33,848 nt of DNA from Thermodesulfovibrio sp. Its GTDB lineage: Bacteria; Nitrospirota; Thermodesulfovibrionia; Thermodesulfovibrionales; Thermodesulfovibrionaceae. The notes beneath the pieces are model-generated. The model did no database searches and was not told where the DNA came from. It saw only the letters and a list, made by a program, of their open reading frames with translations. The DNA lies in assembly GCA_025060075.1 (NCBI GenBank), contig JANXCZ010000068.1, forward strand, positions 1-33,848, in the 5' to 3' direction. Both the position numbers and the translations under genes were made by a program. Of this stretch, positions 28,680 through 33,848 are shown piece after piece; the first letter of the stretch is position 1, and each line of letters opens with the position of its first letter.

Positions 28680-29519
28680 CTAACTTAGTAAAAACTCTTT
28701 TTGTTTCTCAAATTTTGTCTTAAATAGTCCAATAAGCTCATTTAAGGTTTCTTCAGTAATTCCAAGAGACTCATGGTCTATCTTAGTGGCAAGAGGCTCT
28801 TTTAAACCAATTCCAAGATTAAGACATATCTGGTCTGCAACTCTTACAATGTTACATATATCAGCAAATGCCTGATCTTCATGTTGTGGATATGGGTAGG
28901 TATGATGATAGGTTATCACCATTTCTAATTTTTCAGGAAGCTTCCATTTTTTTGCAATAAGACTACCTATAACTGTATGATTAAATCCCAGTTTTTCCTC
29001 TTCAATCTCTATTATTGAGCGTCCTTCTTTGTATACTCTTTCATATATTTGATTATATACCTCTGGCATAGAGTTGTTTATAACTGTTTTACCCACATCA
29101 TGAATTAATCCACATACTAAGGCATCATCTGATGTTTCACTATGGGTTACCATAGCAAGTAAACTTGAACAAAGAGCTACTCCCAGACTGTGCTCCCAAA
29201 GTCTTTGTTCAAATATTCCAAAGCGTCTGTGTAAATCTCTTAATGAAGTAGCTATAACAAGGGATTTAAGAGTTTCAAAACCTATAAGGAGTAAAGCCTG
29301 GGGAATATTTTCAATTTTTCTGTCACGACCATAGTAAGGAGAGTTTGCTATTCTTAAAAGTCTTGTGGCAAATCCTTGATCCCGAGAGATTATTTCCTCA
29401 AGAGCCTTTAAAGAAGCGTAGTCATCTTGAATAAGGTTCATAACCTTCATAGCAATAGGCGGTAAAGAGGGAATATCAACTGTTTTAAAAACTATTTTTT
29501 CTATGATTTCTTCTTGCAA
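28680..29519 (-). CDS. HDOD-domain signalling protein
   Basis: A 279-residue protein made essentially of one HDOD domain, a relative of HD phosphohydrolases that usually acts in signalling without proven catalysis. Marks are VDIPSLPPIAMKVMNLIQDD, the central RIANSPYYGRDRKIENIPQA block, IGFETLKSLVIATSL, WEHSLGVAL, and GLIHDVGKTVI with the HD pair retained. LGFNHTVIGSLIAKKWKLPE follows. The start is TTG at 29519 with AGGAG about six bases upstream, 9 bases after cheB. HDOD proteins are frequent in chemotaxis and flagellar operons. Confidence 0.92.
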   Translation of the reverse strand: MQEEIIEKIVFKTVDIPSLPPIAMKVMNLIQDDYASLKALEEIISRDQGFATRLLRIANSPYYGRDRKIENIPQALLLIGFETLKSLVIATSLRDLHRRFGIFEQRLWEHSLGVALCSSLLAMVTHSETSDDALVCGLIHDVGKTVINNSMPEVYNQIYERVYKEGRSIIEIEEEKLGFNHTVIGSLIAKKWKLPEKLEMVITYHHTYPYPQHEDQAFADICNIVRVADQICLNLGIGLKEPLATKIDHESLGITEETLNELIGLFKTKFEKQKEFLLS

Positions 29520-29528
29520 GACTTTCTC

Positions 29529-30584
29529 CTATACAGCGTTTATTATTTCTCCTGCCATTTCCTCAAGAGGAATAACTTTATCAGCTATTCCTGCTTCAAT
29601 AACGGCACGAGGCATACCATATACTACACAACTTTCCTCATTTTGAGCAAATACTCTTCCACCTGTTTCCTTTATTTTTCTGCATCCCTTTGCTCCATCA
29701 TTCCCCATTCCTGTAAGTATAACACCAAGACTTCTTCCTGGATAACACTCTGCCACAGATAGCATTAAAACATCAACACTTGGACGATATATAAACTCTT
29801 CTCTATCTTCTGATATAGAGACAAAGGTTTCAATTCCTCTTCTTTTAATTCTCATATGACCTCTTCCTGGTGCTATGTATACAAATCCTGGTTTTATAAC
29901 TTCACCTTCTTCTGCTTCCTTTACTGAAAGCTGACTTAACTGGTCAAGTCTTTCAGCAAAAGGCTTTGTAAAATTTGGTGGCATATGCTGAGCAATCACA
30001 ACTGGTACAGGAAAGTCTTTTGGAAGTTTTGGAATAATCTCTTGAAGAGCCTTTGGCCCTCCTGTAGATGTGCCTATTGCAACAATGCCAACTTTTCTTT
30101 CTGTTGAAACTCTTGTTTTTGGTATCTCAATCTTAGGAGTCTCAATTTTTGTTTCAAGGTTCCTTATTGGAGGTTTTCTTTTTACAATCCCTCTTTTAGC
30201 AATTGTTTTAATTTTTTCAATTAACATTCCTTTAATTTTGACAATATTAACTGAAAGTTCAGAGAGATTTTTAGGAATAAAATCAACTGCACCAAGTTCA
30301 AGTGCTTCAAGAGTTACTTTTGCTCCTTCAGTCGTGAGAGAACTTACCATGATTACAGGAACAGGATATTTATTCATTATTTCTTTTAATGCAGTTATTC
30401 CATCCATTCTCGGCATCTCTACATCCATTGTTACAATATCTGGTTTAAGGTCTTGTACCATCTGAACTGCCTCAACTCCATCTCTTGCTGTACCTATTAC
30501 TTTTATTTCAGGGTCTTCTTGAAGCATAGCAGTTATAGCTTTTCTCATAAAAGCTGAGTCATCTACAACTAAAACTTTAATCAT
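29529..30584 (-). CDS. cheB: Chemotaxis receptor methylesterase/deamidase CheB
   Basis: CheB removes methyl groups from (and may deamidate) chemoreceptors after phosphorylation by CheA, resetting adaptation. It has 351 residues. The receiver domain (1-120) starts MIKVLVVDDSAFMRKAI, has the phospho-acceptor Asp in PDIVTMDVEMPRMDG, and IPKNLSEL at its end. After a linker, the methylesterase domain (about 160-350) has the catalytic Ser in VAIGTSTGGPKALQEI, His in IAQHMPPNFTKPFAERL and Asp in LTGMGNDGAKGC. The start is ATG at 30584 with AAAGGAG five bases upstream; an in-frame TTG at 30605 would overlap the previous gene. No cheR is in this window. Confidence 0.96.
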   Translation of the reverse strand: MIKVLVVDDSAFMRKAITAMLQEDPEIKVIGTARDGVEAVQMVQDLKPDIVTMDVEMPRMDGITALKEIMNKYPVPVIMVSSLTTEGAKVTLEALELGAVDFIPKNLSELSVNIVKIKGMLIEKIKTIAKRGIVKRKPPIRNLETKIETPKIEIPKTRVSTERKVGIVAIGTSTGGPKALQEIIPKLPKDFPVPVVIAQHMPPNFTKPFAERLDQLSQLSVKEAEEGEVIKPGFVYIAPGRGHMRIKRRGIETFVSISEDREEFIYRPSVDVLMLSVAECYPGRSLGVILTGMGNDGAKGCRKIKETGGRVFAQNEESCVVYGMPRAVIEAGIADKVIPLEEMAGEIINAV

Positions 30585-30594
30585 ATACACTCCT

Positions 30595-31779
30595 TTAAAA
30601 ACCAAACTCTTTTAGTAGTGCATCTACATCTTCTTGTGAGACCTTCTCAACTTCTCTCTTGGCGATTTCTTTTTCCTCAATCTTTAAGCCAAAAGTGGTT
30701 ATTAGACGAAGAAGTTCTACCTCAAGGTCTCCTACAAGAGCAATTACCTTTTTTAGAACTTGTCCAGTTAAATCTTGAAAAGATTGAGTAGTAAGAATCT
30801 CTGTTAAGTCATCTTCAAGAGAGTTTTTAAAATTCCTAAGAAATTCTACACTTTCAGATGGTCCTTGAAGATTTCTTATATGGTTTGCTAAATCATCCAT
30901 TTTTAAAATATATTTTTCAACAATCTCCATTGTTTTATTTGCTGCTTCTTCTGTTTTATCAATAACCATCTGTAGCTGATCAACTGCTCTTGGCATTCTT
31001 TCTATAGCTATTTCTTTTAGTTTTGGATCAAGTGCTTCTTTGAAACTCTTTAAAGATTCGTGTAGTTTTCTTGCCACTTTTCCTACTTCTTTAAATAAAT
31101 CACTTTGGCTTTTTTGAATTATACTGTTTATTATCTTATTGGCTTGTTCGTAGTCTCCATGGGCAACCATATTCATAAAATTTGTTATTTCCTGAATAAG
31201 AACATATCTTGGATCATCTTTGGAAACGCCTTTTTCCTCATAAAACTTTAAAGGATCCACAATTTCTTTGACTGTAACTTCTCCTGCAATTCCACTAACT
31301 TTTTTGACGACCTCAACCTTGTTGCCTTCATCATGAATTTCTACTATTTCATCTTCAAAAAGGCTTTGATCCTCATAAGGAATTAGTTTTTTAGGCTCAA
31401 GCAAAACAAGTAGCCTATCATTAATCCGAGCAACTCCCTCTATCTGGTTTTGTCCATGTTGCATAAATTCCTCTGCAGGTTCAATATCTGTTTCATCTAT
31501 ATTTATGACACCTGTAATATCATCAACCAATGCACCAAATGTTATCTTACCTGATGAAACAACAATTACTTTATTGCCATTGTTTTCCTCTGGAATACCA
31601 AGAATTCTCTTTAGATTTACAATAGGTATTACTCTTCCACGGAGATTTGTAACTCCTTCAACATAATAAGGAACTCCGGGCATTTTTGTAATCTGAGGTA
31701 GTTTAATAATTTCTTGAACCTTAAGTATAGGAACTGTGTATTCATTTTTTTCAAGAATAAAACCAATGTACTGTTTCAT
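30595..31779 (-). CDS. CheW-CheZ fusion: array coupling protein with CheY-P phosphatase
   Basis: This 394-residue protein joins two chemotaxis proteins. Residues about 1-140 are CheW: MKQYIGFILEKNEYTVPILK, then GVPYYVEGVTNLRGRVIPIVNL and the VDDITGVINID strand. A charged linker runs to about 190. Residues about 200-394 are CheZ: DLFKEVGKVARKLHESLKSF, ERMPRAVDQLQMVIDKTEEA, and the active-site helix FQDLTGQVLKKVI. The last holds the catalytic pair Asp336 and Gln340, matching Asp143 and Gln147 of E. coli CheZ. It ends SQEDVDALLKEFGF, the CheY-binding tail. The start is ATG at 31779 with GAGGAG seven bases upstream; a TTG at 31794 is rejected. It is 17 bases after cheA and 10 before cheB. No separate cheW is seen. 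Confidence 0.95.
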   Translation of the reverse strand: MKQYIGFILEKNEYTVPILKVQEIIKLPQITKMPGVPYYVEGVTNLRGRVIPIVNLKRILGIPEENNGNKVIVVSSGKITFGALVDDITGVINIDETDIEPAEEFMQHGQNQIEGVARINDRLLVLLEPKKLIPYEDQSLFEDEIVEIHDEGNKVEVVKKVSGIAGEVTVKEIVDPLKFYEEKGVSKDDPRYVLIQEITNFMNMVAHGDYEQANKIINSIIQKSQSDLFKEVGKVARKLHESLKSFKEALDPKLKEIAIERMPRAVDQLQMVIDKTEEAANKTMEIVEKYILKMDDLANHIRNLQGPSESVEFLRNFKNSLEDDLTEILTTQSFQDLTGQVLKKVIALVGDLEVELLRLITTFGLKIEEKEIAKREVEKVSQEDVDALLKEFGF

Positions 31780-31796: not shown

Positions 31797-33488
31797 TTAT
31801 TTTACAGTTAAAACTTTTCTTGAAAGTATTGCAAGATCAAGAATTAAAACAACTTTACCGTCTCCTGTAATTGTAGCTCCCATTATTCCACACTCTTCAG
31901 AGTCAATTCCATTTATAGTTTTTATAACAATTTCTTCTTGCCCGATTACAGAGTCTACAGAGATACAAAATCTTTTATCTCCTACACCGGCTACAAGAAT
32001 ATATTTTCTTTTATTCTCTGTTGTAGTGGCAGTTCCAAGGATCTCATTAAGTAAGAAAACTGGTAATACTTTGTCTCTTATTGTAAGAACTTTTTGCCCT
32101 GTTATTTCTTTGATTTCATCTATATTTACTCTTAATGTTTCTTCAATCATTGACTGAGGTATGGCATAGGTCTCATCTCCTACTTGAACCATCATAGCCT
32201 GAATTATTGCTAATGTAAGAGGTAAGCTTATTCTAAAGGTTGTTCCCTTATCTTTTTCTGTAAAGATCTCTACATATCCATTAAGTTTTGCTACATTGGA
32301 TTTAACAACATCCATTCCAACTCCTCTGCCACTTAGTTCTGTAGAGACATCCTTTGTAGAGAATCCAGGAAGAAATATTAAATTTATTATTGATTCTTCA
32401 GACATCTTTTCAGCTTCTTCTAAAGTAATAAGTCCCTTTGTGATTGCCTTTGCCTTAACAGCTTCAATATCTATGCCTCTTCCATCATCAGATATATCTA
32501 TAACAATTTGAGTTCCCTTTTGATAAGCATTTATTACAATCTTGCCTTTTGGAGACTTTCCTTTTGAAACTCTCTCATTAGGAAACTCTATTCCATGATC
32601 TATTGAGTTTCTTATTATATGAACAAGGGGGTCTCCAATATGCTCAATGACTGATTTGTCAACCTCGGTATCTTCACCAATAATTTCAAGATCAACTTCT
32701 TTACCAAGTGTTCTTGCAAGGTCTCTTACCATCCTTGGAAACTTTACAAAAACTTTCTGCAGTGGCTGCATTCTCATCTTCATAACTGCAAGTTGTAAAT
32801 CTGAAGTAACTCTGTCAAGAAACGAAGTGGTCTCTACAAGTCCTTCTATGTGTTCATCTCCGCTATATTTTGCCTCAAGTTTACTTACAAGATTAAGTAA
32901 TCTGTTACGGGCAAGAACTATCTCTCCTGCAAGGTCCATTACTTTGTCTATTCTTTCAACATCAACCCTTAGTGTGGCAACTTCTTTTTCTTTTGGAGCT
33001 TGAGTTACAACTTCTTCAGGTTTTGATACTTTAGCTTCAACTTTTTCTACTTCAGCTTTCTCTATTTTTTGTTCAATTTCTTCAGTTTTTTCAGGTTTTA
33101 AAGAGGCTTTCTCAAGAGCCCTGTCAAGTAAATCTAAAACTGGCTGAATATTCTCTTTTTTGTCTTCTTTTAATTTAATATTTAATATTAGAATCCTTAA
33201 TGTATCTACAGCTTTCAAAATAGCATCATTTATCTCTGCAGAAAAAGGTATCTCACCTTCTCTTACTTTTTTTAGAATGGTTTCTGCTTTGTGGGCAACA
33301 TCAACTATATTTTGAAAACCAAGAAATCCAGCAGCTCCCTTTAAGGTATGCATTCCTCTGAATATTTCATTTACAATCTCAGGGTCTTTTTTATGTTCAA
33401 GTTCAACAAAGAGAGGATCAAGTTGTTCAAGTATTTCTTCTGCTTCTATAATAAATTCGTTTATTATCTCATCCATCTCATCAGCCAT
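31797..33488 (-). CDS. cheA: Chemotaxis histidine kinase CheA
   Basis: CheA is the receptor-array kinase that phosphorylates CheY and CheB. It has 563 residues. P1/Hpt is at about 1-105, with phospho-accepting His47 in RGMHTLKGAAGFLGF. A Lys/Glu-rich linker of about 40-60 residues follows with no recognisable P2 domain. P3 (about 175-235) starts LRVDVERIDKVMDLAGEIVL. P4 has the ATP-site boxes HIIRNSIDHGIE, DISDDGRGID, GFSTKDVSTELSGRGVGMDVV and GTTFRISLPLTLAI. P5 is CheW-like (about 430-563, AIPQSMIEETL). AAAGGAGG precedes the ATG, which shares one base with the cheY stop. The missing P2 would mean that CheY is recruited less strongly by the kinase itself. Confidence 0.95.
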   Translation of the reverse strand: MADEMDEIINEFIIEAEEILEQLDPLFVELEHKKDPEIVNEIFRGMHTLKGAAGFLGFQNIVDVAHKAETILKKVREGEIPFSAEINDAILKAVDTLRILILNIKLKEDKKENIQPVLDLLDRALEKASLKPEKTEEIEQKIEKAEVEKVEAKVSKPEEVVTQAPKEKEVATLRVDVERIDKVMDLAGEIVLARNRLLNLVSKLEAKYSGDEHIEGLVETTSFLDRVTSDLQLAVMKMRMQPLQKVFVKFPRMVRDLARTLGKEVDLEIIGEDTEVDKSVIEHIGDPLVHIIRNSIDHGIEFPNERVSKGKSPKGKIVINAYQKGTQIVIDISDDGRGIDIEAVKAKAITKGLITLEEAEKMSEESIINLIFLPGFSTKDVSTELSGRGVGMDVVKSNVAKLNGYVEIFTEKDKGTTFRISLPLTLAIIQAMMVQVGDETYAIPQSMIEETLRVNIDEIKEITGQKVLTIRDKVLPVFLLNEILGTATTTENKRKYILVAGVGDKRFCISVDSVIGQEEIVIKTINGIDSEECGIMGATITGDGKVVLILDLAILSRKVLTVK

Positions 33489-33848
33489 TACTGTCCTCCT
33501 TTAAGAGAGGGTCTTTTCTGAGCAATCTTTTCAAGTTTTTCCTTTAAAACTTCTCCAGTAAAAGGTTTTACTATATAGTTATCCACACCTGCCTTTATTG
33601 CCTCAATAACTTTCTCCTTTTCAGCTTCAGCTGTTACCATTAAAAAGGGTATATCTTTTAGTGTAGGATCATTTCTCACTTGTCTTAAAAGTTCTATTCC
33701 TTCCATCACCGGCATGTTCCAATCTGAGATTATAAGTCCATATTCTGTGCTTCTTAGCTTTCTTAATGCATCTTCTCCGTTTTCTGCTTCATCAATATTT
33801 TCAAATCCAAGTTGTTTAAGAAGATTTTTTATAATTCGGCGCATTGTT
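33488..33848 (-). CDS. cheY: Chemotaxis response regulator CheY (5' end outside window)
   Basis: Single-domain receiver that binds the flagellar switch when phosphorylated. At least 118 C-terminal residues are visible, and the frame stays open to the window edge. The first visible residues, TMRRIIKNLLKQLGF, match the end of the first CheY loop, so about 10-15 residues including the acidic pair are missing. LIISDWNMPVMEG carries the phospho-acceptor Asp, MVTAEAEKEKV the conserved Thr, and IVKPFTGEVL the conserved Lys. An internal ATG at 33844 is only an apparent start. The partner phosphatase is the CheW-CheZ fusion and the kinase is the adjacent CheA. Confidence 0.93.
   Translation of the reverse strand, partial: TMRRIIKNLLKQLGFENIDEAENGEDALRKLRSTEYGLIISDWNMPVMEGIELLRQVRNDPTLKDIPFLMVTAEAEKEKVIEAIKAGVDNYIVKPFTGEVLKEKLEKIAQKRPSLKGGQ

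Follow-up and report, generated by a model that had tools for sequence, protein, structure and literature searches.

A chemotaxis gene of Thermodesulfovibrio encodes a CheW-CheZ fusion protein that is conserved in many Nitrospirota

Results

CheW and CheZ domains are encoded in a single reading frame

We analysed a 33,848-nucleotide stretch of DNA from Thermodesulfovibrio sp. (contig JANXCZ010000068.1, hereafter the window) and found that its flagellar chemotaxis operon carries a gene, cheWZ (30595..31779, minus strand, stop codon included), whose 394-residue product joins an N-terminal CheW domain to a C-terminal CheZ. CheWZ is a new, conserved architecture of two known domains. Its conserved residues and gene context suggest that it probably acts as a single-chain adaptor-phosphatase, docking into the chemoreceptor array via CheW and removing CheY-P via CheZ.

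The cheWZ frame starts with an ATG at position 31779, its last sense codon ends at 30598, and a TAA stop codon occupies positions 30595-30597 (minus strand). Its 394 codons are free of internal stops. A Pfam search of the product returned PF01584 (CheW) on residues 3-133 (E-value 2e-34, 118.6 bits vs a cut-off of 23.5) and PF04344 (CheZ) in the C-terminal half as two stretches, the best of which spans residues 227-305 (2.7e-31, 109.5 bits vs a cut-off of 30.7). The same search gave no match to Response_reg. Our results confirmed that CheW and CheZ reside in one polypeptide, as the original prediction had claimed from the open reading frame.

The source assembly of the window is only 68% complete and is divided into 95 contigs, a state in which a sequencing or assembly error could have merged two separate genes. 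However, over 100 independent genomes encode the fusion in the same single frame, one-contig assemblies (G168, G052, G079 and G014) among them, and none of these independent homologues places a stop and start between two genes. We therefore regard a frameshift or assembly artefact as extremely improbable and, in practice, ruled out. An internal start yielding a separate CheZ, comparable to that of short CheA, was also considered, and none is evident because the only good Shine-Dalgarno site in cheWZ, GAGGAG, is located at the first ATG.

Both halves retain functionally important residues

The CheW domain (residues 3-133; 31381..31773, minus strand) was delimited by Pfam, alignment to E. coli CheW, conservation among homologues and fold match. 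A Phmmer search against the PDB matched six CheW sequences to residues 2-145, and in these alignments V21, E23 and R47 of CheWZ correspond to V36, E38 and R62 of E. coli CheW, which are functionally important residues contacting the receptor or CheA. In an alignment of 30 homologues, E23 and R47 are invariant and V21 is at least 90% conserved.

A linker and helices (residues 134-226; 31102..31380, minus strand), defined by alignment and by a structural model with low confidence at residues 143-173, connect this domain to the CheZ helical hairpin (residues 227-363; 30691..31101, minus strand), which Pfam and the model both place here and which comprises two long helices (residues 252-302 and 308-363). 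E. coli CheZ (1kmi) matched residues 222-362 by Phmmer against the PDB. When the CheZ half alone was used as the query, D336 and Q340 of the catalytic motif D336-L-T-G-Q340 (30760..30774, minus strand) aligned exactly with D143 and Q147 of 1kmi, two residues that are functionally important in the CheZ family. The original assignment of Asp336 and Gln340 to an FQDLTGQ motif is borne out, and both residues are invariant in the 30 homologues. Invariant positions across these 30 fusions include E23, R47, Q335, D336, T338, G339 and Q340, and their presence in both the CheW and the CheZ halves indicates that both halves are under selection.

The protein ends with a conserved tail, SQEDVDALLKEFGF, of the DVDxLLxEFGF type, which is nearly invariant in the 30 diverse fusions. 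Residues 382-394 (30598..30636, minus strand) make up the C-terminal peptide QEDVDALLKEFGF, which follows a tether (residues 364-381) modelled with low confidence and resembles peptides that bind CheY. The tail had been noted previously as a likely CheY-binding element, and on sequence grounds CheY binding remains its predicted role.

We also built an AlphaFold2 model of CheWZ from the 30-fusion alignment; its overall confidence is moderate (pLDDT 69, pTM 0.36). From the N terminus, the model shows a CheW barrel, then the low-confidence linker (143-173) and the two long helices, and finally a terminal helix (382-391) that the low-confidence tether joins to the hairpin. Comparison of the barrel with known CheW structures, including those in array models, gave Z scores of about 19-20 (20.6 to 2qdl and 20.1 to 2ch4). 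The hairpin superposes on 1kmi with a Z score of 9.1 over 112 residues, which is no better than that of unrelated helical hairpins; therefore, the fold alone is no proof of CheZ identity, and the proof comes from the sequence.

cheWZ is a member of the flagellar che operon

The gene order in the window is cheY-cheA-cheWZ-cheB-HDOD, followed by flgF, flgG, flgA, flgH, flgI and flgJ. cheY (33488..33844, minus strand), at the contig edge, encodes a receiver domain only. cheA (31797..33488, minus strand), directly upstream of cheWZ, encodes Hpt, dimerisation, HATPase and CheW-like domains, and Pfam found no receiver domain in its product. Directly downstream, cheB (29529..30605, minus strand) has its ribosome-binding site within the end of cheWZ and is followed by a gene encoding an HDOD-domain protein (28680..29519, minus strand), whose position after cheB is conserved in the genus. 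Relatives carry a longer operon in which flhF-flhG-fliA precede cheR-cheY-cheY-cheA-cheWZ-cheB, and the order cheY-cheWZ-cheA is found at three other loci (L078, L083 and L191). The same slot is filled by a stand-alone cheZ, in the order cheY-cheZ-cheA, in two other Nitrospirota (L188 and L184) and in a gammaproteobacterium (L126). cheWZ is a member of the flagellar che operon and holds the cheZ slot in several lineages.

The fusion is widespread in Nitrospirota

In a search of 61 near-relative genomes, 14 of the 16 that belong to the genus, counting the source genome of the window, encoded a full-length homologue (query residues 1-394; 74-100% identity); the two without a match have completeness values of 56% and 63%. 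Homologues with 40-63% identity are encoded by many further genera of the same order. A profile of 30 fusions run against 230 genomes from the class recovered stop-free full-length fusions in 107 of them, and many of the roughly half that gave no full-length match may be non-flagellate or incomplete. Partial matches are cut by contig ends in two genomes (G310 and G396), and those in a one-contig assembly (G385) resemble frame breaks. The named carriers are all Nitrospirota and include Thermodesulfovibrio sp. SKYB4, Thermodesulfovibrionales bacteria and Candidatus Magnetomicrobium cryptolimnococcus. Four genomes (G309, G160, G292 and G398; L205-L208) encode two CheW-CheZ fusions each, and the second copies of G309, G160 and G292 are located away from the main che operon.

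Among 398 sampled Pseudomonadota genomes, no CheW-CheZ fusion was found at an E-value cut-off of 1e-40, a strict threshold that diverged fusions could escape. Only matches to the CheZ half or the CheW half were obtained, the former starting near profile positions 144-199 in open reading frames of about 230-300 residues. A candidate proteobacterial fusion in Thiohalobacter (L126), which seemed to be a partial full-length match, proved to be a stand-alone cheZ.

The fusion has formed more than once or its halves have been exchanged

In a tree of the CheZ half, gammaproteobacterial CheZ groups with the Thermodesulfovibrionia fusions, and CheZ of other Nitrospirota groups with the fusions of family f20 and of locus L083. 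For this half, a single origin of all fusions was rejected (p-AU 4.8e-14), and a single clade of the main 32 Thermodesulfovibrionia fusions was not (p 0.21). For the CheW half, one clade of all fusions was weakly rejected (p 0.019) and one clade of the main set was not (p 0.105); the tested groups were named after the trees had been seen, which weakens these p-values, and the CheW tree is based on only 138 columns. The rejection for the CheZ half points to at least two fusion events or to exchange of domain halves. The CheW halves of the fusions branch separately from stand-alone CheW, as a lineage of their own. The fusion at L083 (5971-7083) has a HAMP-like linker (E-value 2.4e-4, below the cut-off).

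In family f28 of the same phylum (L179-L182), the open frames for CheZ span 347-398 residues and include an N-terminal CheW-like domain that is degenerate and has lost the NLRG/R62 motif. This domain was detected by Pfam below the cut-off in two of the four members (9e-5 and 3e-4) and by hhalign with a probability of 95.8, one of the four aligned rows being trimmed imperfectly. Furthermore, in genome G351 (contig C51, L200:1266-2006), in the order fliA-cheY-cheZ, the CheZ encoded directly after cheY keeps the CheWZ linker and has no CheW half, which could reflect secondary loss or an assembly error. The decayed CheW half of f28 and its apparent absence in G351 suggest that docking has not always been kept.

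CheWZ coexists with a separate CheW

The original prediction that no stand-alone cheW lies nearby held within the window and failed genome-wide, as an orphan cheW is present on contig C90 of the same genome. In five relatives (L073, L074, L075, L076 and L082), a stand-alone cheW lies immediately 3' of cheWZ. All genus genomes searched for CheW encode a separate one, and the orphan cheW of G052 adjoins a PgpA gene. CheWZ does not replace CheW and is an additional CheW-type protein. Given the orphan cheW elsewhere in the genome, CheWZ is probably an extra adaptor, comparable to CheV, that carries a phosphatase. With the orphan CheW present, the CheW half could also make only a small contribution to the array, or it may have shifted towards a different binding partner.

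These observations also bear on whether CheWZ merely tethers CheZ, binding CheA without substituting for CheW as the link from receptors to kinase, so that all coupling would fall to the orphan CheW. A separate CheW throughout the genus, its adjacency to cheWZ in several relatives and the distinct lineage of the fused CheW halves are consistent with such a tether. However, the E38 and R62 equivalents are invariant in the 30 fusions and the V36 equivalent nearly so, which argues against it, and we consider the tether explanation unlikely. The best-supported reading is instead integration of the phosphatase into the array by way of CheW, as suggested by the conserved V36, E38 and R62 equivalents together with the position of the gene in the flagellar che operon and, in some relatives, in the cheZ slot.

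Other CheW-type proteins were observed in the genus. A protein of about 502 residues with three tandem CheW domains is encoded in some Thermodesulfovibrio genomes (L161, G052 C1:107012-108439; also G096 C29 and G299 C121). In the window's own genome, contig C89 carries a second chemosensory cluster at about 13-20 kb (L195), encoding a dCache_3 protein, a receiver-DUF4388 protein, a divergent CheA, an MCP and a short CheW-like protein of 150 residues whose domain was matched only in part.

CheWZ is the sole representative of known CheY-P phosphatase families found in Thermodesulfovibrio

Neither CheX nor CheC was matched in six Thermodesulfovibrio genomes, five of which are at least 99% complete, and FliY was not found in the same six; the CheC model also detects FliY-type proteins, and G083 and control genomes did give CheX/CheC matches. 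The genus also yielded no CheZ separate from the fusion. CheWZ is therefore the only protein from a known family of CheY-P phosphatases that we found in Thermodesulfovibrio.

This result weighs on another explanation, in which CheWZ would be a CheV-like adaptor for particular receptors, its phosphatase acting locally on their output and not as a general signal terminator. CheV, which combines CheW with a CheY-like receiver, has been proposed to serve as an additional adaptor and as a phosphate sink (PMC4742279), and CheWZ likewise coexists with CheW. Nevertheless, a receptor-specific role fits poorly with the lack of any other known-family phosphatase and with the location of cheWZ in the main flagellar che operon, in the slot held by cheZ in relatives, and we judge it quite improbable.

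Discussion

We infer that CheWZ docks in the array, dimerises, dephosphorylates CheY-P and affects CheY-P gradients, as follows. The CheW half would dock into the chemoreceptor/CheA array, as CheW or CheV do, and the CheZ half would dimerise via its helical hairpin. The flexible C-terminal peptide could then capture CheY-P, and Q340, together with D336, would accelerate its dephosphorylation where CheA produces it. CheZ would thereby be obligatorily localised at the array. CheWZ would be the main or only CheY-P phosphatase of the Thermodesulfovibrio flagellar pathway, operating alongside a separate CheW.

CheWZ resembles E. coli CheZ in the Asp/Gln pair within FQDLTGQ, the predicted hairpin, the tether, the CheY-binding-type peptide and the location in a flagellar che operon. 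In contrast, E. coli CheZ is a stand-alone protein that short CheA brings to the receptor cluster (PMC1447658, PMC7750401), whereas CheWZ has a CheW domain fused at its N terminus. CheZ reaches the pole by other routes through ChePep in Helicobacter and independently of CheA in Azorhizobium (PMC7750401); in these cases it is anchored by a partner protein or by its own motifs, whereas the likely anchor of CheWZ is the CheW domain of the same chain. Like CheV, which has been linked to lowering CheY-P, CheWZ couples a CheW domain to a second signalling domain; the partner in CheV is a receiver, which CheWZ lacks, and in CheWZ it is the CheZ phosphatase. The stand-alone CheZ of family f27 (other Nitrospirota, mostly 200-225 residues) belongs to the same CheZ family and occupies in L188 (cheR-cheY-cheZ-cheA) the slot that cheWZ occupies in some relatives, but has no CheW domain and a tree position apart from the Thermodesulfovibrionia fusions.

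The original prediction knew of no characterised CheW-CheZ fusion, and we likewise found no prior description in the searchable open literature, although it may be included in published surveys (Wuichet and Zhulin 2010; Vass et al. 2022, on CheW architectures) or in databases of protein families.

The reason for the localisation of CheZ to receptor clusters has long been sought. In simulations of E. coli, cluster-placed CheZ flattens the CheY-P gradient and thereby exposes every motor to an equal level (PMC1447658). Prior studies used separable partners such as short CheA and ChePep, whereas the link in CheWZ is covalent across many species. We tentatively propose, as a possibility rather than an expectation, that a large part of this bacterial class holds its CheY-P phosphatase covalently in an array adaptor, that this arrangement arose at least twice in Nitrospirota and places kinase and phosphatase in one array unit, and that one CheZ dimer could bridge a pair of CheW sites and thereby shape the array.

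CheWZ, the stand-alone CheZ of f27, the decayed CheW half of f28 and the possible deletion in G351 offer natural comparisons for the study of localised signal termination. Furthermore, CheZ joins the receiver of CheV as a further type of partner among CheW-fusion adaptors, and CheWZ could serve laboratory chemotaxis circuits as a phosphatase that comes with its own anchor.
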